A DNA stretch of 64,000 bases from Desulfovibrionaceae bacterium. GTDB taxonomy: Bacteria; Desulfobacterota; Desulfovibrionia; Desulfovibrionales; Desulfovibrionaceae. The DNA lies in the NCBI GenBank assembly GCA_028689675.1, contig JAQVCS010000007.1:62001-126000 (forward strand), in the 5' to 3' direction. The notes beneath the pieces were generated by a model that ran no database searches, was not told the DNA's origin, and saw nothing but the letters and a program-made list of their open reading frames with translations. A program made the translations under genes and the position numbers. Below, one piece after another: positions 1,287 through 61,849 of the stretch; positions within the stretch are counted from its first letter, which is position 1, and each line of letters starts with the position of its first letter.

Positions 1287-3260
1287 TTATTTTTTGGGCA
1301 AAGCACGCTGAGCTTTTACAAATAATTCCGTCAGCGCGGGGGATGCCCCCTCGGCATCAAATAGCTTTTTGGCATCAATACGCGCCTGCTCGCCCAAGGC
1401 TCGCGCCATTTCGGGCGCTTCCATGCAGCGGCGTATGGCCTGTGCTATGCCTTCTGGCTTGCGCTGAGGCACAATAAGGGCATTGCTTTCATGCTGCAAA
1501 ATCTCTAGCTGCCCCGGCAAATCGGTGGCAACTATGGTGCAGCCATACAGCATGGCCTCTTGCAGGGCTGTGGGCAGCCCTTCCATAAAGCCGCCCTGCG
1601 CATAGCCCGCCGCCACAAAAATATCTGTTGTTTTCCATAGTTCTGGCATGCGCTCATGCGCCACCTGCCCCAAAAATTCCACCTGTTTACGCAGCCCCAA
1701 GCGCCATGTCAGCAGCTTCAGGCCGCGGCGGGCTGGGCCATCGCCAGCAATGCTCAAGCGAAAGGGCACATTCAGGCTTTTCAGGCTGGTACAAGCGCGC
1801 AGCACATCTGCTACACCTTTTTGCTTGTCAAGCGTGCCCGCCACCAGAATATGCGTTTGGCGCGGGGCATTGCCAGCCTGCGGCAGGCTTGCTTCATCTT
1901 CGGCAGGGGCTGGCAGGGTCAGGCCATCACGCAGCAGCACAAACTTATGCGCCAGCTCGGGAAAACGCGCCTGCAAGGTTTGCTGCGTTAAGGCTGTGTC
2001 GCAGCGCACAAACAAGGCTTCATCGGCCTTTATGCCCACAAGGGCAAGGTTTTCTGCAATGTCTCGTGTGCGCACCCCAAAGGCAAAAGGCACACCAGCC
2101 ATGCGCGCAGCAGCCCATGCCATGGTGGCAGGGCCGTGGCCAGAGGGGGCATACACAAATTCAATACCGTCAGAACGTACCCAACGCGCCATCAACGCCG
2201 CGCACAGCAAATGCCCCCAGCGGGAAAATAATGCCCCCAGCGTGGCATGGCGCAGGGGCAAAGCGCGACGCAGGCCGCTTATGCTGGTGACATTATCCTT
2301 TGAAAATAATGCACCCACAGCAGGCAGCAAACGCCACAAACCCACGCGGCTGATGGGCAAGGGCAAAGCATATTGCTCGCTGTCAGACAATGCCCCCAAG
2401 CCCATACCGCTGGCTGCATACACGCGCGAAAGCAAGCCAGCCTTGTGCAGGCGCAGCACATCCTGCACCGTGCTCAGGCCGCGTGGCTCTGGGAATTGTT
2501 CCATAATAAAAGCCGCTTCCAGCACACGCGGCGGGCCATCCAGCAAGTGCCCACGCTGAGAAAAATCATTGTCCATAAAGGTACGGTCATTTTTCTGGCA
2601 ATGCAAAATGCCGTCTTCCAAAGTATAAATAGTGTCGCAATAGTCTGCCATTTTGGGGTCGTGGGTCACCATAATCATGGCAACACCGCCAGAATGGCAC
2701 AGCGTGCGGAAGTTTTCCATAACCACGCGGCTTGTGCGGGCATCCAGCGCACCCGTGGGCTCGTCTGCCAGCAGCACACGCGGATTATTGACCATGGCGC
2801 GGGCAATGGCCACGCGCTGCTGCTCGCCACCAGAAAGGCGATTGCTGCGGTAATGCACGCGCGGTGAAAGGTTTACCAGCTCAAGGGCACGAATCACCCT
2901 TTCCCAACGCTTTTGCGGGGGTACTTTTTCATAAATAAGCGGAAATTCAACATTTTCAAACACGGTGGAGTGATCAAACAAATTGCTGCTCTGCATAACA
3001 AAGCCCATATTGCCACGCCGAAAGGCCGCTGTTTGCTCGCGGTCAAATTCCAGCACATTGGTGCCCAAAATTTCCAGCGTGCCCGCATCGGGGGCGTGCA
3101 GCATGCCCAGCACATGCAGCATGGTAGACTTGCCGCAGCCAGAGGGGCCCATAATGGCCACCAGCTCACCGGGTTCAACAGAAATATTCACCCCGCGCAA
3201 CACAGGGGGAAAGCCAGGGTAACACTTATATAAATCTTTAGCGATAATTACGGGTGCCAT
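1287..3260 (-). CDS. ABC-exporter ATPase fused to a GT4-family glycosyltransferase
   Basis: A 657-residue fusion. Residues 1-230 are a LolD/MacB-type ABC ATPase: Walker A GPSGCGKST (about 38-46), signature LSGGEQQR, Walker B VLLADEPTGALD and switch His in VTHD. Residues 260-657 are a complete GT-B glycosyltransferase of family 4, with an N-terminal FPEPRGLSTVQD segment, the donor-domain start AGTLDKQKGV, and EGLPTALQEAM plus DLPGQLEIL at the nucleotide-sugar site. I chose ATG at 3260 because TAGG sits about 7 bases upstream; a TTG at 3275 would overlap the permease. The permease ends 7 bases before this start, so the pair is surely cotranscribed. Fusion of these two activities in one chain is not a standard architecture. 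The glycan acceptor is unknown. Confidence 0.85.
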   Translation of the reverse strand: MAPVIIAKDLYKCYPGFPPVLRGVNISVEPGELVAIMGPSGCGKSTMLHVLGMLHAPDAGTLEILGTNVLEFDREQTAAFRRGNMGFVMQSSNLFDHSTVFENVEFPLIYEKVPPQKRWERVIRALELVNLSPRVHYRSNRLSGGEQQRVAIARAMVNNPRVLLADEPTGALDARTSRVVMENFRTLCHSGGVAMIMVTHDPKMADYCDTIYTLEDGILHCQKNDRTFMDNDFSQRGHLLDGPPRVLEAAFIMEQFPEPRGLSTVQDVLRLHKAGLLSRVYAASGMGLGALSDSEQYALPLPISRVGLWRLLPAVGALFSKDNVTSISGLRRALPLRHATLGALFSRWGHLLCAALMARWVRSDGIEFVYAPSGHGPATMAWAAARMAGVPFAFGVRTRDIAENLALVGIKADEALFVRCDTALTQQTLQARFPELAHKFVLLRDGLTLPAPAEDEASLPQAGNAPRQTHILVAGTLDKQKGVADVLRACTSLKSLNVPFRLSIAGDGPARRGLKLLTWRLGLRKQVEFLGQVAHERMPELWKTTDIFVAAGYAQGGFMEGLPTALQEAMLYGCTIVATDLPGQLEILQHESNALIVPQRKPEGIAQAIRRCMEAPEMARALGEQARIDAKKLFDAEGASPALTELFVKAQRALPKK

Positions 3261-3267
3261 AGTATAC

Positions 3268-4455
3268 CTACTCAAAACGCAGCGCGCTTACAACATCCAT
3301 ACGACTTGCCTGTACGGCAGGGAAGATACCACCAGCAACGCCAATGAAGCCAGAAAAAATGATACTGCCCAAGCTGCTGAGCATGAGCTGCCCAAGAGGA
3401 ATGGTGCTGCCCAGCATACTGGCGCCAATATACACCACTGCTGTGCCCACACCAATGCCCACCAGCCCGCCAGCAACCGATTTGCACAAGGCTTCGGTAA
3501 GAAATTGTGCCATAATATCCACATCAGAGCCGCCCATGGCCTTTTTCAAGCCCACTTCACGGGTGCGCGCCCGCACCGAAGCAAAGGTGCCATACCAAAT
3601 GCCAAAGCCACCCAGCAGCAGGGCGGCAATAATGCCCATCCACAGCAGGGCTTCTACCCAAATAAATGTGCCCTTAATGCGGTCAAGCTGCTCTGCCTGC
3701 GTTTGAATAACAAGATAGGGCGCGGCCTGATGCTCTTTCACCACATCGGGTATTTGCTGCACAATGCCAGCCACATCTTCCCAGCCAATGGCGCGGACAA
3801 AGAGCCTATTGGCCATGCCCCCGCCCCAATTGCGGTCAACCATAGTGGTATAGGGCAAAAAACCGCCCTCGCCCCAGCTGCCCAGCATAACCCCGCCCAT
3901 AACGCCCACCACTTCCACAATATCATTGCCCAAAAACAGGCGCTTGCCCACGGCGGCTTTTTCAGAGCCATATAAGTTTTGCGCTGCCTGCCGCCCAAGA
4001 AGGCACACACGGCTGCGCTGGCGCACGTCTTCTGCTGTCAGGGTACGCCCAGCAAGAATTTCTGCCGATTGCGTAGGCACAAAAAATTCATCAATACCAA
4101 TAAAATTAATGGCTATACTGCGCTCACCCACCCTTTGGGTAAAGGTAGCGCCGCCCATAATATTGGTGCTGACCATGCCCACCTTGGGTATGGCGCGCAG
4201 GGCAGCAATAGTTTCGGGGTAAAATTCCCGCTGGGGTTGGCCTGGGTATTGGTCATCTTCCATCACCACACGCACCACGTTCACGCCGCCCATCAGCACC
4301 ATATCTTGCCCGATATTGTAGCGAATTTCCTGCCCCAGCACTGAAAGCGTGATAAAAGCAGTAATGCCCAGCGCAATAGAAAAAATAACCCCCAGCCCGC
4401 GCTGGCGTATAACCTGACGTACGCTCACGCGCACTAAATCTGACATTGCAATCAT
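3268..4455 (-). CDS. MacB/FtsX-type ABC transporter permease
   Basis: A 395-residue inner-membrane protein with the MacB/LolC layout: one N-terminal membrane helix (LGVIFSIALGITAFITLSVL), a periplasmic domain of about 230 residues, then three C-terminal helices of the FtsX domain beginning near WVEALLWMGIIAALLLGG. The cytoplasmic EVGLKKAMGG segment is the usual coupling site with the ATPase. The partner ATPase is the fusion protein encoded just downstream. MacB-like systems are mechanotransmission exporters that move lipoproteins, peptides or lipidated cargo from the periplasmic side. The glycosyltransferases around it suggest a glycan- or glycolipid-related cargo, but that is inference. ATG at 4446 is an alternative start. 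Confidence 0.85.
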   Translation of the reverse strand: MIAMSDLVRVSVRQVIRQRGLGVIFSIALGITAFITLSVLGQEIRYNIGQDMVLMGGVNVVRVVMEDDQYPGQPQREFYPETIAALRAIPKVGMVSTNIMGGATFTQRVGERSIAINFIGIDEFFVPTQSAEILAGRTLTAEDVRQRSRVCLLGRQAAQNLYGSEKAAVGKRLFLGNDIVEVVGVMGGVMLGSWGEGGFLPYTTMVDRNWGGGMANRLFVRAIGWEDVAGIVQQIPDVVKEHQAAPYLVIQTQAEQLDRIKGTFIWVEALLWMGIIAALLLGGFGIWYGTFASVRARTREVGLKKAMGGSDVDIMAQFLTEALCKSVAGGLVGIGVGTAVVYIGASMLGSTIPLGQLMLSSLGSIIFSGFIGVAGGIFPAVQASRMDVVSALRFE

Positions 4456-54923: not shown

Positions 54924-55075
54924 ATACCCAAAACGGCATATTCTGCCTGCATTTCTGCCTGCTGCAATTACTGAGGATGCGGCAGGCAGCATCGACCGTG
55001 CGGGCGGCCGTATCGAAAATTGTCTTTCGGTGCGGCGTTGGGGGTTTAATGTTCTGTATCCAAAAGGACAAGCAC

Positions 55076-56053
55076 ATGAGGAACGGTAAAACACTGCTGC
55101 GATGGATGGTTGCAATGGTAGTGGTTGCCGTGGCGTGTACTGGCCTGGTGCTGACAAGCCATGTGGCCAACGCCACTGAGCCAGCACTTGAACCCACTGA
55201 AAGTGGGGCGCCTTCTGCCATGGTACTCTTCCCCGTGACCGAAAAGCCCAATCCCGCTAAAGCGGCGATGCGGCCTGTGGTTTTTAACCACTTGGTTCAC
55301 GAAAAAAAAGTCACCGACTGCGAAAGCTGTCACCACACGGGGGAACCCGTTGCCTGTAGCACCTGCCACACTGTGGAAGGCAAGGCTGAAGGCAAATTTA
55401 TCACGCTTGAGCGTGCCATGCATGCGGAAAATATTGCCCCGCGTAAAAATGGCGTTACGCCCAAAAGCTGCGTGAGCTGTCACAATGAAAACCTGAAACG
55501 CCGCGAATGCGCTGGCTGCCACAATATTGTCAAGCCCAGCCGTGGCGAAGCGTATTGCGGCACTTGCCACAATGTTAGCGCCACTATGACCGACGAACAA
55601 ATGGCCAAGGGCATGAAGGGCACGCTGGCTTCTGATGCCGACCTTGCTGCCGCCACCGTGGCAGAAAAGAAGGCCGCCCAGCTTATTGCGCCCGAAGCTG
55701 TGCCCTATAAGGTCACTATTGACAGCATTGCCGACAAGTATGAAGGCAACAGCTTTATGCATGCCCGCCACATCAGCTCGCTGATGAAGCGCATTGAAGG
55801 TGACAAGCTGGCAGGTGCTTTCCATAACAACCCCGCCACCTTGTGCTCTACCTGTCATCACAACAGCCCGCTTTCGGCTACCCCGCCCAAGTGCTCTAGC
55901 TGCCACAGCGCCAAGCCAGATATGAAAAACCCTGGCCGCCCCGCGCTCAAGGCTGCGTATCACTTACAGTGCATGGGCTGCCATGAAGGTATGAAGGTTG
56001 CGCGTCCCCGCAATACCGATTGCACCACTTGCCATAAGGAACGCGCAAAGTAG
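55076..56053 (+). CDS. nhcA: Nine-heme cytochrome c
   Basis: 325 residues. A signal peptide (LRWMVAMVVVAVACTGLVL, cleavage near SHVANA) directs export. Exactly nine CxxCH motifs are present (CESCH, CSTCH, CVSCH, CAGCH, CGTCH, CSTCH, CSSCH, CMGCH, CTTCH), plus many extra His for axial ligation, the layout of 9HcA: two cytochrome-c3-like tetraheme units and one isolated heme. It accepts electrons from periplasmic hydrogenase/cytochrome c3 and passes them to the membrane partner. AAGGA 7 bases before ATG 55076. First gene of nhcABCD. Confidence 0.93.
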   Translation: MRNGKTLLRWMVAMVVVAVACTGLVLTSHVANATEPALEPTESGAPSAMVLFPVTEKPNPAKAAMRPVVFNHLVHEKKVTDCESCHHTGEPVACSTCHTVEGKAEGKFITLERAMHAENIAPRKNGVTPKSCVSCHNENLKRRECAGCHNIVKPSRGEAYCGTCHNVSATMTDEQMAKGMKGTLASDADLAAATVAEKKAAQLIAPEAVPYKVTIDSIADKYEGNSFMHARHISSLMKRIEGDKLAGAFHNNPATLCSTCHHNSPLSATPPKCSSCHSAKPDMKNPGRPALKAAYHLQCMGCHEGMKVARPRNTDCTTCHKERAK

Positions 56054-56068
56054 CGCCGAGGAGCACAT

Positions 56069-57097
56069 ATGAACCGCAGAAAATTCCTGACCGTTATGGG
56101 CAGTGCGGGTGTGGCCTCTGCTCTTGGCACGACCGTGGCCACAGAGTCTCAGGCCTCGCACACCTACCCTTATTTTCCTGAAAGCTACGGCGTGCTGCAC
56201 GACACCACCCGTTGCATAGGCTGCCGCCGCTGTGAAGAAGGCTGCCAAAAAGCCAACCACCTGCCCGAGCCCAAGCGCCCCTTTTCGGATCTTTCCGTTA
56301 CGGGCACTAAGCGCCGCACCACTGCCTATGAATGGACAGTGGTCAATAAGTATCAGGTGGGCAATGTGGAAGTGTTCCGCAAGTTGCAGTGCTATCACTG
56401 CCAAGACCCGGCCTGTGCCTCTGCCTGCTTTGCCAAATGCTTCCAAAAGATGCCCGATGGCACAGTGCATTATGAAGGCTCGCAATGCGTGGGCTGCCGT
56501 TATTGCATGGTGGCTTGCCCCTTCTATGTGCCTGGCTTCCAATATGATGAAGCGTGGGATCCTTTAGTGCAAAAGTGTACCTTCTGCCAAGAACGCACCC
56601 AAAAAGGCTTGCTGCCCGCCTGTGTGGAAGCCTGCCCCATGGAAGCACTGGTGTTTGGCAAGCGCTCTGACCTCATCAAGATTGCCCGTCAACGTATGCG
56701 CGACAACCCCGAGCGCTATGTAGACTACATTTATGGCGAACACGATGCTGGCGGCACGGCATGGCTGACCATTTCTGGCGTGCCCCACAGCGAGCTTGGC
56801 ATGGATACCCACTTGGGCAACCGCCCCATGGGTGAACTGACCTATGGTGCTTTGGGCGCTGTGCCCATGATCATTGGCTTCTGGCCTGTGCTCTTTGGCG
56901 GCGTGTATGGCGTCAATAAATTCAAGGAATCGGTAGCCAAGCGCGAAAAGGCCAAGGCTGCCCAAGCTGCCACCGAAGCCGCACTGAAGCAAATTGAAGA
57001 ATTGCAGGGTGCAGAAGCGGCAGCCAAGGTGCGTGAAGCACTGGCAGAAGCCCAAAAAGGCTCTGCCTGCTCCTGCAAGCACGGGGAGGATGCGTAA
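56069..57097 (+). CDS. nhcB: Periplasmic 4Fe-4S ferredoxin-like subunit with Tat signal
   Basis: 342 residues. The Tat motif is N-RRKFLTVMGSAG. Four cysteine groups follow: CIGCRRCEEGCQKAN, CYHCQDPACASAC, CVGCRYCMVACPF and CTFCQERTQ with CVEACP, enough for four 4Fe-4S clusters as in HmcB/DsrO. Near the C-terminus a membrane helix (LGAVPMIIGFWPVLFGGVYG) anchors the protein, followed by a charged coiled tail ending in CSCKHGEDA. It relays electrons between NhcA and NhcC. It lies 15 bases after nhcA. Confidence 0.92.
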   Translation: MNRRKFLTVMGSAGVASALGTTVATESQASHTYPYFPESYGVLHDTTRCIGCRRCEEGCQKANHLPEPKRPFSDLSVTGTKRRTTAYEWTVVNKYQVGNVEVFRKLQCYHCQDPACASACFAKCFQKMPDGTVHYEGSQCVGCRYCMVACPFYVPGFQYDEAWDPLVQKCTFCQERTQKGLLPACVEACPMEALVFGKRSDLIKIARQRMRDNPERYVDYIYGEHDAGGTAWLTISGVPHSELGMDTHLGNRPMGELTYGALGAVPMIIGFWPVLFGGVYGVNKFKESVAKREKAKAAQAATEAALKQIEELQGAEAAAKVREALAEAQKGSACSCKHGEDA

Positions 57098-58321
57098 ATG
57101 TCCGCACACGAACACTATATCGCCATTCCCACCAAGGATAAAATGCTGAACATCGGCGAATTTTCGCTGAAGCGCCCCGGCAACCAGATTACGGCTGTCA
57201 TCCTTATTGTGGGCATTATTTTAACCATTATCCGCTTCACACAGGGTATTGGTTCTATTACTAACCTTGACGACAACCAGCCTTGGGGCATGTGGATTGG
57301 CTTTGACTTGCTGTGCGGCGTGTGCCTTGCAGCGGGCGGCTATTTCACCACCGTTGCCTGCTATGTGCTGAAAGTGCCCGGCATTCATTCTGCCGTGCGC
57401 CCTGCCGTTACCACCGCCTTTTTGGGCTATGCCTTTGTGGTTGTGGCGCTGTTGTATGACCTTGGTCATCCTCTGCGCCTGCCCTACATGTTCTTCTTCC
57501 CCGGCACAACGTCTGTGCTCTTTGAAGTGGGCTTGTGCGTTGCCACCTATTTGACTGTGCTCTTCCTCGAATTCTCCATTGCTCCTATTGAATGGCTTTC
57601 GGTGAAGTGGCAGTTCCTTGCCAAGTGGCGCAAGCCGCTCATTCGCGTGGGCATTTTGCTGACCATTATGGGCATGTGCCTTTCCACATTGCACCAGTCT
57701 TCTTTGGGCGCTTTGTACCTTATTGCCCCCAACAAGCTGCATCCTTTGTGGTATTCGCCCTTCATGCCCATGTTCTTCTTTGTGTCTTCTATGGCTGCTG
57801 GTGCATCCATGGTTATTTTTGAAGGCATGTTTGCCCACAAGGGCGTGCACCAGTATATGGACGCCACCCATTTAGCTGAAGCCGACGGCGTTACCTTCAA
57901 GTTTGCCAAGGCTGCTTCCATGATTCTCTTCAGCTACTTTATTTTGAAGTTCACGGACATGGTTGTGCAGGCCAACACCCATTACCTTTTCTCTGGTTAT
58001 GGTGTGTGGTGGCTGGTGGAAATGCTCTTCTTTGTGCTGACCCCTGCGCTTATTTACGCCAAGGGCTCGCGTGACCAGAACATCCTGCTGTGCCGCATTG
58101 GCTCGGTGAACGCCGTTGCTGGTATTGTGCTGAACCGCTTTAACGTCAGCATGATTGCCTACAACTGGCAGTTGCCTTCTGCCGAGCGTTACTTCCCCTC
58201 TATTTGGGAAGTGTGCATCTCCATCTTCGTGGTGACCTGCATTGTCACGGTGTATCGTGTTGTTGTGTATCACACGCCTACCCTGTACGAACATCCCTTG
58301 TACAAGGGCGAAGAACACTAG
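57098..58321 (+). CDS. nhcC: NrfD/HmcC-like quinone-interacting membrane subunit
   Basis: 407 residues with about ten membrane helices. The NrfD (PsrC-like) fold is seen in PWGMWIGFDLLCGVCLAAGG, DLGHPLRLPYMFFFPGTTSV, LSTLHQSSLGALYLIAP and SSMAAGASMVIFEG. Such subunits exchange electrons with menaquinone and may contribute to charge transfer. The ATG follows the nhcB stop without a gap. Confidence 0.93.
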   Translation: MSAHEHYIAIPTKDKMLNIGEFSLKRPGNQITAVILIVGIILTIIRFTQGIGSITNLDDNQPWGMWIGFDLLCGVCLAAGGYFTTVACYVLKVPGIHSAVRPAVTTAFLGYAFVVVALLYDLGHPLRLPYMFFFPGTTSVLFEVGLCVATYLTVLFLEFSIAPIEWLSVKWQFLAKWRKPLIRVGILLTIMGMCLSTLHQSSLGALYLIAPNKLHPLWYSPFMPMFFFVSSMAAGASMVIFEGMFAHKGVHQYMDATHLAEADGVTFKFAKAASMILFSYFILKFTDMVVQANTHYLFSGYGVWWLVEMLFFVLTPALIYAKGSRDQNILLCRIGSVNAVAGIVLNRFNVSMIAYNWQLPSAERYFPSIWEVCISIFVVTCIVTVYRVVVYHTPTLYEHPLYKGEEH

Positions 58322-58601: not shown

Positions 58602-60638
58602 TTATGCTGGTGTTACATGCAAAATATCCAGCGCGGCTATTTCTTCACGCGCTACGCGCTCTGTTTCTTCCAGCATGCGGCGCTCGCCATGCGCCCAAAT
58701 GAGCAAGAGCTTGTCGCTTAAAATACGCTGAAAAGCCTGTGCCTGTTGTTCGCCCAGTGCCGTTATGCGGCTTTCTGTTAATAAATACCCGCGTACCAGC
58801 GAGGGCAATTGCCATTCCAGCACGCTATTGGTCACTTTTTTGCCCAAGGGCAAGTATTTTACAGCAGCACCGCCCAGCCCTGCCGCCACCAATAAGGGCA
58901 GGGCAAACACCCCAGCTGCCGCCATGCCCACAGCCCCAGCAGCCAAACCAGCAGCCCCCACAGCCCCAGCAGCCGCCCATGCGGCCTTGTCGCGCAAAGG
59001 GGCAAGGGTGGCTTCTTCTAGGGCGGCACGCATGGCCTGCATCAATTCATCCATTTGAATAAGCGCTGTTTTTTGCAAGCGCTCTGGCACAATGGGCACA
59101 GCCTTTTCTGCAAACCAGCTCTTCAGCTCTTCTGCACAAATCTGCGCCATGTCTGCCCCAAGGCGCTGCACAGCCTCACCCATAAGCTGAGAAAGCAGCT
59201 CTTTTTGTGTTTCCATGGCATGCGCTGTACGCACCATCAAATCACGCAATGAGCCGCCCTGCTGTTTATACAGCAGGCATTGGGGCACAATAACAGCATC
59301 GCGCAAAAAGGCAGAGCAATCAAACAAAGCCCCTGTCACTGCGCTATCAAGCCCACGCCGCAGGGCGCGGGCAAGGCGGCGCTCTAAAAACACGCCCAAT
59401 TCTTCCTGCAAGGCCTGCCGCCCCTTGTGCAGCTTTTCTGAAAAATTATAAAATTGCGCCAGCCCCTTGGCAATGTCGGCATAGGGTTCATCCCCCGTGA
59501 GCACCAGCACGTCATTGCCGCAGCATTGGCGCACCAAGTCGCCCACAAAAGGCCAGCCAGAAGAACCGCCTGTTAACAGCACCGTGGGCAGCTGCCCTGC
59601 GGGGCAGTCGCGCAGGCTTTGTCGCAGCAATTGCTCAAACCAATCAATCAAATCAACACGCCGCCCCGCCAGCAATGCCGCGCCATACTGGCTTAGGTTA
59701 CCTGCCTGCGCAGGGCTGGCCAACAGCTCCAGCAGGGCTGGAGAGGCGGCATAGTTCCCAGCCCGCAATAAAAATTCCTGCCATGTCAGCCCCTCAATAT
59801 AGGCTGCCCTTTCCACAGCTTTGCGCCCATCCCAGCGCGACCAGCGCACCCGCACCGTAACAGAGCGGCTGCGCTCACGCCCCATAGCGCGCGAAAATTC
59901 TTCTTTGGCCTGACGGCAGGCCAGCCAATGCACATAATAGCTATTGCCCTCTGCGGCTACTTCTTCTTCCAACCCCGGGTTGCATTCCAGCAGCATTTGC
60001 CAAAAAAGGTCATCAAAAAGCCGCCCGCCAAAAAGCATGTCCCCGCTGCGTTCACTCACCGCTGCACGCCGCAGCACGGCAAAGTCACAAGTGCCGCCGC
60101 CAAAATCCACAGTCAGCACGCCGCGGGCGGCCTGCGAGGGCGGTAAAGCTCCTTTTACTATGTAATGAATTACCGCCCCCAAAGGCTCACTTAAAAAATG
60201 AGCCTCTGCCCAGCCAGCTTGTGCCAAACATTGGCGCAGGGTTTCGCGGTATTGGTTGCCCGCTTCAGAGGGCACACCCACCAGCAGGGTTTGCGGCATG
60301 GGCGTGTAGCGGCGTAGCAGGCTTAAAAAATCCAGCATGGCCTGCCTTGCCTGCGGGCGCGCGGCCACATCGGGCTTAAACAGGGCACTCAGGCGGTATT
60401 CAGCCCTTTCGTTCAGGCTGGCTTCGCCATATTCATCTTCTGCCTGCGCGCCAATGGCAAGGGCATTCTCACCTTTATACAGCACAAGGGTGGGTATGGT
60501 GCCGCTGCTGCTGTTATTGCAGCAGGGGTCGGGGCTGATCATTTCCAGCTTGCCAGCCGCATCGCACAGCACAAGGCAGGTATTGCTTGTGCCCAAATCC
60601 ATAGCCAGCACCACACGTTGTTGTGTTGCCTGTGTCAT
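58602..60638 (-). CDS. Atypical Hsp70 with hydrophobic C-terminal segment
   Basis: 678 residues. The actin-like ATPase is intact: LAMDLGTSNTCLVL (phosphate 1), VLTVDFGGGTCDFAVL (phosphate 2), LFGGRLFDDLFWQ and VLLTGGSSGWPFVGDLV (adenosine). The canonical beta-sandwich substrate domain is not recognisable. Instead residues 400-545 are helical, and residues about 549-596 form a Gly/Ala-rich hydrophobic stretch (AAGAVGAAGLAAGAVGM, VFALPLLVAAGLGGAAV) that could insert into the membrane. A helical tail follows. Its ATG overlaps the stop of the upstream membrane protein by 4 bases. It is not DnaK. The client is unknown; a membrane-linked chaperone is the simplest reading. Confidence 0.85.
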   Translation of the reverse strand: MTQATQQRVVLAMDLGTSNTCLVLCDAAGKLEMISPDPCCNNSSSGTIPTLVLYKGENALAIGAQAEDEYGEASLNERAEYRLSALFKPDVAARPQARQAMLDFLSLLRRYTPMPQTLLVGVPSEAGNQYRETLRQCLAQAGWAEAHFLSEPLGAVIHYIVKGALPPSQAARGVLTVDFGGGTCDFAVLRRAAVSERSGDMLFGGRLFDDLFWQMLLECNPGLEEEVAAEGNSYYVHWLACRQAKEEFSRAMGRERSRSVTVRVRWSRWDGRKAVERAAYIEGLTWQEFLLRAGNYAASPALLELLASPAQAGNLSQYGAALLAGRRVDLIDWFEQLLRQSLRDCPAGQLPTVLLTGGSSGWPFVGDLVRQCCGNDVLVLTGDEPYADIAKGLAQFYNFSEKLHKGRQALQEELGVFLERRLARALRRGLDSAVTGALFDCSAFLRDAVIVPQCLLYKQQGGSLRDLMVRTAHAMETQKELLSQLMGEAVQRLGADMAQICAEELKSWFAEKAVPIVPERLQKTALIQMDELMQAMRAALEEATLAPLRDKAAWAAAGAVGAAGLAAGAVGMAAAGVFALPLLVAAGLGGAAVKYLPLGKKVTNSVLEWQLPSLVRGYLLTESRITALGEQQAQAFQRILSDKLLLIWAHGERRMLEETERVAREEIAALDILHVTPA

Positions 60639-61849
60639 CGCCGCACCTTTCGTAACAAACCTTTGCGCAGCACCACGCCTTCTTTCATTTCGGGCACTCT
60701 GTCCACAAAGCAGGGGTCGCCCTCATGAATAATACCCAACTTGTCATAGTGCTCTGCCAAAGCCTCATGCCACAGCATTTCGCCACGGCTTTCTTCAAAT
60801 TCCAGCCCCAAGTCGCGCAGCCGCTCTATCAGCCAATCCCGCCTTTCTGCGCTCAGCTCATGGGCAAAAGAATAGACATCCTGCCCCAAGGCCTCAAGCC
60901 TTTGCCCTGCGGGGCTTTGCTCGGGCTTGTGGGCAAGGTCTTGTAAACGCAGCATGGCCTGCGCTGTTTCATACCATGTTTGGCAGGCTTGGGCTATGCG
61001 CGCCTGTGCCACAGCCTTGTTGAGCCGCTTGGGCAAAGAAAGCAGCATCAGCCACAGCGCCAGCCACAACCAAAAACCGTAAAAAGAGCTGAACAAAGGC
61101 CACAGTGTGCCCTGTGTGAGCAGGCTGTTTATGCCAGCCAAAAAAGTTTCCAGCACAGGGCGCCCCAGCACAAAATCGCGCAGCAGGGCAAAGCACAGCG
61201 CCGCGCCAAAAATGCACCACAGGGCAAGGCGCACATTGCCGCGCAAAAAGACAAAAAAGAACACAAGGCGGCGCAGGTTTTTCCACACCAGCCACGCCAC
61301 CAAGCCCTTTTTTTGCCATGAAGCATTCCAGCGCTCTTTCAGCGCTGCTTTTTGCCCCGCATCTTCCTTTGCCTGCGTGTTGGGGGGCAGGGCAGCCTCG
61401 GCTTTTTGTGCTGCCGCCTGCACCTGCGGGCGGGTAAGCAAGAGTACTTCCCATTGGCTTATTTTTTCTGCTAACCGCAACAGCCCTGCTGTGCACAGGG
61501 CAATAAAGGCCAGCCCCAGCAGCCCGCCCAAGGGCACAGAGGCCAAGCCCAAGCCCTGCCACAGCGCCCCTGCCGCCGCCAAGGTTAAAAAAATAACTGC
61601 GGCAGTGTGCAGCCAGCCAAGGGGATAGGCCAGCGCATCATCCAGCGGCACAACAAGAGGCGGCAGGTTTTGCCTTGCCTTGCGCTGCCACGAAAGGGGG
61701 GCTTCTGCATAAGGGGCAAGGGCAAGGTTCATCAGCTCGCGCCGCACTAAAAAAAGCGTGGCACGCACCTGCTGCACCCCTGACACAGAGGGCACTTTTT
61801 CAAGCACAGCCTGCACTACCGTGCTTATTTCATTATCCTTGTCTGGCAT
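60635..61849 (-). CDS. Membrane protein with C-terminal GrpE-like domain
   Basis: 404 residues. Hydrophobic helices cluster at about 75-125 (AAVIFLTLAAAGALW, LGLAFIALCTAGLL) and 205-285 (LVFFFVFL, LALWCIFGAALCFALL, FWLWLALWLMLLSL). The last 75 residues resemble the core of GrpE: a helix, LGLEFEESRGEMLWHEALAE at the F-D-P-x-x-H-E-A-V position, and VPEMKEGVVLRKGLLRKV at the final G-x-V-L-R-P-A-x-V strand. It may thus be a membrane-anchored nucleotide exchange factor for the Hsp70 encoded immediately downstream (ATGA overlap). Homology to GrpE is my reading of a weak pattern. Confidence 0.7.
   Translation of the reverse strand: MPDKDNEISTVVQAVLEKVPSVSGVQQVRATLFLVRRELMNLALAPYAEAPLSWQRKARQNLPPLVVPLDDALAYPLGWLHTAAVIFLTLAAAGALWQGLGLASVPLGGLLGLAFIALCTAGLLRLAEKISQWEVLLLTRPQVQAAAQKAEAALPPNTQAKEDAGQKAALKERWNASWQKKGLVAWLVWKNLRRLVFFFVFLRGNVRLALWCIFGAALCFALLRDFVLGRPVLETFLAGINSLLTQGTLWPLFSSFYGFWLWLALWLMLLSLPKRLNKAVAQARIAQACQTWYETAQAMLRLQDLAHKPEQSPAGQRLEALGQDVYSFAHELSAERRDWLIERLRDLGLEFEESRGEMLWHEALAEHYDKLGIIHEGDPCFVDRVPEMKEGVVLRKGLLRKVRR

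Follow-up and report, generated by a model that had tools for sequence, protein, structure and literature searches.

A widely conserved gene pair encoding a divergent Hsp70-type ATPase and a polytopic membrane protein suggests a membrane-bound Hsp70 machine

The usual picture of a bacterial Hsp70 is that of a soluble chaperone in which a beta domain binds unfolded chains, and GrpE is the factor that recharges Hsp70s. Among the divergent Hsp70s, we know of no membrane partner or hydrophobic hairpin for HscA, YegD, or HscC. Analysis of a 64,000-nucleotide stretch of Desulfovibrionaceae DNA (referred to here as the window) showed a gene for a 678-amino-acid (aa) Hsp70-like ATPase directly downstream of a gene for a 404-aa polytopic membrane protein (Table 1). 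An earlier note on this DNA had claimed that the start codon of the Hsp70 gene overlaps the stop codon of the membrane protein gene, and this proved correct: both open reading frames were found, sharing 4 nt. Since a canonical DnaK (890 bits) and a canonical GrpE are also encoded in the source genome, the 678-aa ATPase is an additional Hsp70. No description of such an Hsp70/membrane-partner pair was found in the open-licence literature, in agreement with a remark in the same note that no named system has this layout. Adjoining the pair on the opposite strand, at window positions 54977 to 58321, genes for a multiheme cytochrome, a ferredoxin-type iron-sulfur protein, and a polytopic membrane protein were read by eye; this gene run resembles a respiratory membrane complex.

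Table 1. Features of the gene pair, with positions in the window and the evidence for each
Feature	Position	Strand	Evidence
Hsp70-like ATPase gene, 678 aa	58602..60638	(-)	ORF; PF00012 above cut-off; Foldseek matches all Hsp70
Hsp70 nucleotide-binding domain, residues 1-395	59454..60638	(-)	AF2 model; invariant catalytic residues; alignment to own DnaK
All-helical C-terminal domain, residues 396-678, replacing the substrate-binding domain	58605..59453	(-)	AF2 secondary structure
Putatively membrane-inserted hydrophobic hairpin rich in Gly/Ala, residues about 549-606	58821..58994	(-)	Family hydropathy
4-nt stretch shared by the stop codon of the partner gene and the start codon of the Hsp70 gene	60635..60638	(-)	ORFs; identical geometry in 22/80 loci
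Polytopic membrane partner gene, 404 aa	60635..61849	(-)	ORF; upstream of Hsp70 in 73/80 loci
Membrane region of partner with roughly four transmembrane helices, residues about 78-272	61034..61618	(-)	Family hydropathy and AF2 helices
GrpE-like C-terminal part of partner, residues 278-404	60638..61018	(-)	AF2; Foldseek; collinear profile matches

The 678-aa protein is a divergent Hsp70-type ATPase with putative chaperone activity. In its AlphaFold2 model (pLDDT 85.9, pTM 0.82), an ATPase domain extends to about residue 395 and is followed by helices only. A single-sequence Pfam search placed PF00012 above the gathering cut-off over residues 123 to 250 only, with MreB scoring about equally. When a profile of the ATPase family was compared to the PDB, DnaK was the best match (8.9e-22), and the best 50 listed Foldseek matches of the model were all Hsp70 or DnaK chains. 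Because of these two results, the protein belongs, by profile and predicted fold, to the Hsp70 branch and not to the actin/MreB branch. Most catalytic residues were placed through an alignment to DnaK. D14, K88, E151, D178, T183, and D185 are invariant in the family (48 homologues), as is the GGS of the adenosine motif, and K88 probably corresponds to K70 of DnaK. The Hsp70 signatures GGRLFDDLF and KEEFS were also found. The protein has the Hsp70-type ATPase fold with both the phosphate and the adenosine motifs, and the intact ATPase motifs reported in the earlier note were borne out by the PF00012, DnaK, and Foldseek matches and by the invariant residues.

Beyond the ATPase domain, no beta-sandwich substrate-binding domain with a helical lid was found, as had been noticed earlier; past residue 395 the model consists of helices, and PF00012 covers the ATPase part only. 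The Gly/Ala-rich hydrophobic stretch that the first reading placed at about residues 549 to 596 is conserved in the family (consensus 550 to 591), and hydropathy analysis detected two hydrophobic segments in 41 of the 48 members. This segment pair would fit a membrane hairpin. Profile searches with the helical domain found no confident homologue in the PDB or Pfam. The only matches, to apolipoprotein A-I, Spx, and chains of phage cargo proteins (E ≥ 0.0014), were interpreted as amphipathic-helix or hydrophobic-stretch noise and rejected.

The 404-aa partner matched nothing in Pfam, NCBIfam, or PADLOC, and comparison of its family profile to the PDB gave only chance matches, for instance to FliG and NhaA, with GrpE absent. 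Its description as polytopic held up, since the modal number of hydrophobic segments across 58 homologues is four. Four segments would be consistent with both ends of the protein lying on one side of the membrane, with the qualification that one of the segments is weak and the loop charges are ambiguous. The pair is probably located in the inner membrane.

The C-terminal part of the partner was predicted by AlphaFold2 to consist of a helix (residues 278 to 306), two short helices (314 to 329 and 334 to 346), and a beta part (349 to 401). GrpE (1DKG) has its elements in this same order, from the long helix to the beta part. When the whole partner model was searched with Foldseek against 350,542 PDB chains, the top 11 places were all taken by GrpE or GrpEL1 from five species (E. 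coli 1dkg, Geobacillus 4ani, Thermus 3a6m, human 9bls/9blt, and 9a81, presumably GrpE of B. subtilis), each match being weak by itself (E of 0.33 to 2.1, TM-scores of at most 0.37). This concentration would be hard to obtain by chance because the PDB contains few distinct GrpE sequences. The same model searched against a viral structure library gave incoherent matches and no coherent family.

Sequence comparisons of the partner with GrpE gave collinear signals that lie below threshold. The Pfam GrpE family (PF01025) was absent among the 25 families listed for the 58 partner homologues. With hhalign, the probability was about 1% against canonical GrpE, with out-of-register or short matches only, and 5 to 14% against divergent GrpEs; against the GrpEs of other divergent Hsp70 operons, a collinear 68-column alignment was obtained, with an E value of 0.007 for one comparison. 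For both the helix segment preceding the beta part and the terminal 28-residue segment, the best window was the equivalent position of GrpE, although about 5% of trials with column-shuffled GrpE also reached the score of the 28-residue segment. A gapped profile Smith-Waterman comparison was discarded, as it did not separate GrpE from controls. In a ranking of 3,544 sequences by an HMM of the partner C-domain, membrane-anchored GrpEs of planctomycetes came out on top; the ranking was made with many spurious ORFs as background and with related GrpEs, so that its p-values are not to be taken at face value.

The earlier note had also recognized a GrpE pattern at the end of the partner, and this was correct in part. 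Conservation is high in the terminal GxVxxKGLVRKxR strand, which scores best against GrpE in the window that is in register. The "HEA" at residues 361 to 363, on the other hand, is a chance occurrence; only the preceding W360 is conserved. Other conserved residues are G348, Y368, G372, GD377-378, and the terminal KGxVRK, and a W...Y(D/E)xFG stretch stands in the partner family in place of the FDPxxHEAV motif of GrpE. The structure and profile comparisons with GrpE that the note had proposed were likewise divided, with GrpE ranking above all other PDB entries in the model search, at weak E values, and profile-profile comparison to canonical GrpE failing. The GrpE reading depends on the structural model and not on standard sequence profiles. 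Since neither the sequence model nor the motif of GrpE was found, the partner should not be filed as a GrpE; that it works like one is our leading hypothesis.

The two genes were found to be strictly associated. A profile of the ATPase family matched 7 of 395 genomes of the phylum, each with an upstream polytopic gene having the same conserved C terminus, and a reciprocal search with the partner profile returned exactly the same 7, so that neither gene occurred alone in the other 388 (both profiles contain some members of the matched genomes). Three other genomes of the same family carry the pair, each with a 4-nt overlap, and in one further genome the ATPase lies at one contig end and the partner at another. 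The question of conservation within Desulfovibrionaceae, raised in the earlier note, can be answered: the genes are conserved neighbors well beyond the family. A single-sequence scan of genome contigs found nothing; an alignment-based scan, in which each species was represented by one genome, detected at least 138 Hsp70 relatives, of which 80 loci were kept. In 73 of these, the Hsp70 gene is preceded on the same strand by the partner gene, usually within a few bases. Two of the seven exceptions begin at the edge of a contig, and the other five are metagenome-assembled genomes (MAGs) of termite-gut-type Planctomycetaceae; in all seven, the partner is present at another place in the genome. In the five MAGs (L076, L090, L091, L095, and L100), both genes are kept but unlinked, and no common neighbor of the partner was seen. 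The L120 and L116/L124 genomes carry several copies of the Hsp70 each, including two in tandem.

A tree of 42 relatives spans nine phyla (Planctomycetota, Myxococcota, Thermodesulfobacteriota, Pseudomonadota, Synergistota, Bacillota, Spirochaetota, Calditrichota, and Chlamydiota) and mostly tracks them. Across the 42 loci, the pairwise identities of the two proteins are correlated (r = 0.95), to which shared phylogeny contributes. No neighbor other than the partner, and no J-protein gene in particular, was conserved. The pair is ancient and apparently obligate, and the conserved adjacency, the co-occurrence, and the lack of any other conserved neighbor mean that it forms a self-contained two-gene unit. 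Because the cultured type strains Thiocystis violacea DSM 207, Allochromatium palmeri DSM 15591, and Lamprocystis purpurea DSM 4197 carry the pair, its function is directly testable.

The pair probably represents an obligate two-part machine of the inner membrane, in which an Hsp70 ATPase is served by a dedicated nucleotide-exchange partner integral to the membrane. The domain architecture, the conserved catalytic residues, the conserved hairpin, the obligate pairing, and the GrpE-like model support this computationally. We infer the membrane location, the physical interaction, the exchange activity, and the client as follows. The Hsp70-fold ATPase would bind and hydrolyze ATP, and it would be anchored by the hydrophobic hairpin of the helical domain, for which the substrate-binding domain has been exchanged and which would be put into the membrane. 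The polytopic partner in the same membrane would offer its domain, a probable distant relative of GrpE, to the ATPase lobe on the cytosolic side; there it may serve as a dedicated exchange factor releasing ADP or as a regulator of the ATPase. Cycling of ATP would then alter the helical domain, which may act on a membrane client (a protein, a lipid, or the partner itself). The proposal of a dedicated chaperone/exchange-factor pair in the earlier note is in this way partly upheld: the conserved pairing and the model search led by GrpE speak for it, and the weak E values and the failure of canonical GrpE profiles speak against it. Neither of the two outcomes that the note had named as refuting its proposal was observed. 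The missing FDPxxHEAV motif, the lack of a linked J-protein gene, and the ambiguous topology of the partner also count against the exchange-factor reading.

Three other explanations were weighed against the exchange-factor reading. The pair may be real and the C-domain of the partner may be no exchange factor but a small beta domain for docking, through which the ATPase is brought to a membrane complex. The lack of a significant sequence link to GrpE and of a conserved FDPxxHEAV motif would agree with this, but GrpE filling the top 11 structural matches, the order of helix, two short helices, and beta part, and the collinear, if weak, profile matches count against it, and we regard simple docking as unlikely. 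Still less probable is a membrane-tethered filament former of the actin or MreB/ParM kind, anchored by the polytopic protein and resembling GrpE by convergence. The helical tail could indeed be a coiled coil or a membrane anchor, and in single-sequence searches MreB and an actin-family protein score as high as Hsp70; the family profile, the best 50 listed fold matches, and the two Hsp70 signatures nevertheless all favor Hsp70. An antiphage defense or toxin-like module, which the patchy distribution within phyla (the 7 of 395 genomes) might bring to mind, is highly improbable given that the PADLOC-DB defense protein models match neither protein, the neighbors are neither conserved nor defense genes, the Thiocystis homologue of the ATPase had no plasmid match, and the tree mostly tracks phyla.

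The two genes occur together in at least nine phyla, an indication of a membrane-bound Hsp70 machine not yet described. If this is true, the cycle of Hsp70 would have become part of a membrane device in a lineage spanning nine phyla, without the beta domain and with a hairpin and a membrane-embedded exchange partner. There is a realistic chance that the pair is a membrane machine of another kind. The fuller version of that idea is doubtful but conceivable, namely, an altogether new membrane ATPase machine in which the Hsp70 motor has traded folding for membrane insertion through the hairpin, is recharged by a GrpE-type exchange factor integral to the membrane, and has the bilayer or membrane complexes as its target in place of unfolded chains.

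Among known systems, the nearest sequence relatives of the partner C-domain are the membrane-anchored GrpEs of planctomycetes. For example, in one operon (L184:852-3753), such a GrpE (2467-3753) lies beside an Hsp70-like gene (852-2411) and, like the partner, has a GrpE-type domain at the C terminus of a membrane protein. Unlike the partner, it is recognized by Pfam GrpE (37.3 bits) and has two hydrophobic segments, and unlike in the 678-aa ATPase, PF00012 covers residues 85 to 511 of its Hsp70-like neighbor. This operon and similar ones (L185, L188, L189, L191, and L179) encode a membrane-anchored GrpE (428 to 513 aa) and an Hsp70-like protein bearing a substrate-binding domain; a type II/IV secretion ATPase (T2SSE) gene adjoins the L184 operon and, as read by eye, those of L179 and L189 as well. 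In gut planctomycetes (L192:1941-4744 and L193:1837-4795), a borderline GrpE-like protein (18.5 bits in L193) lies beside an Hsp70-like gene, and its C-terminal part aligns with the W...Y...GD stretch of the partner; it may be an evolutionary intermediate. Consecutive genes for a small J-like protein, a divergent GrpE, and a divergent Hsp70, all soluble, were seen in several phyla (L195:1724-4475, L197:1726-4785, L175, and L177). HscA, YegD, and HscC share a divergent Hsp70 ATPase with the 678-aa protein, which weakly matches the HscA and YegD family models and falls far below the curated cut-offs. The superfamily fold is also common to MreB and ParM, to which Hsp70 is clearly preferred by profile and structure. 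With the DnaK-GrpE system, the pair shares the Hsp70 ATPase fold, the conserved catalytic residues, the predicted GrpE-like helix/beta order in the partner, and strict pairing; it differs in that its Hsp70 has a putative membrane-inserting helical tail in place of the beta-sandwich substrate domain, and its partner is polytopic, with a sequence below GrpE thresholds.
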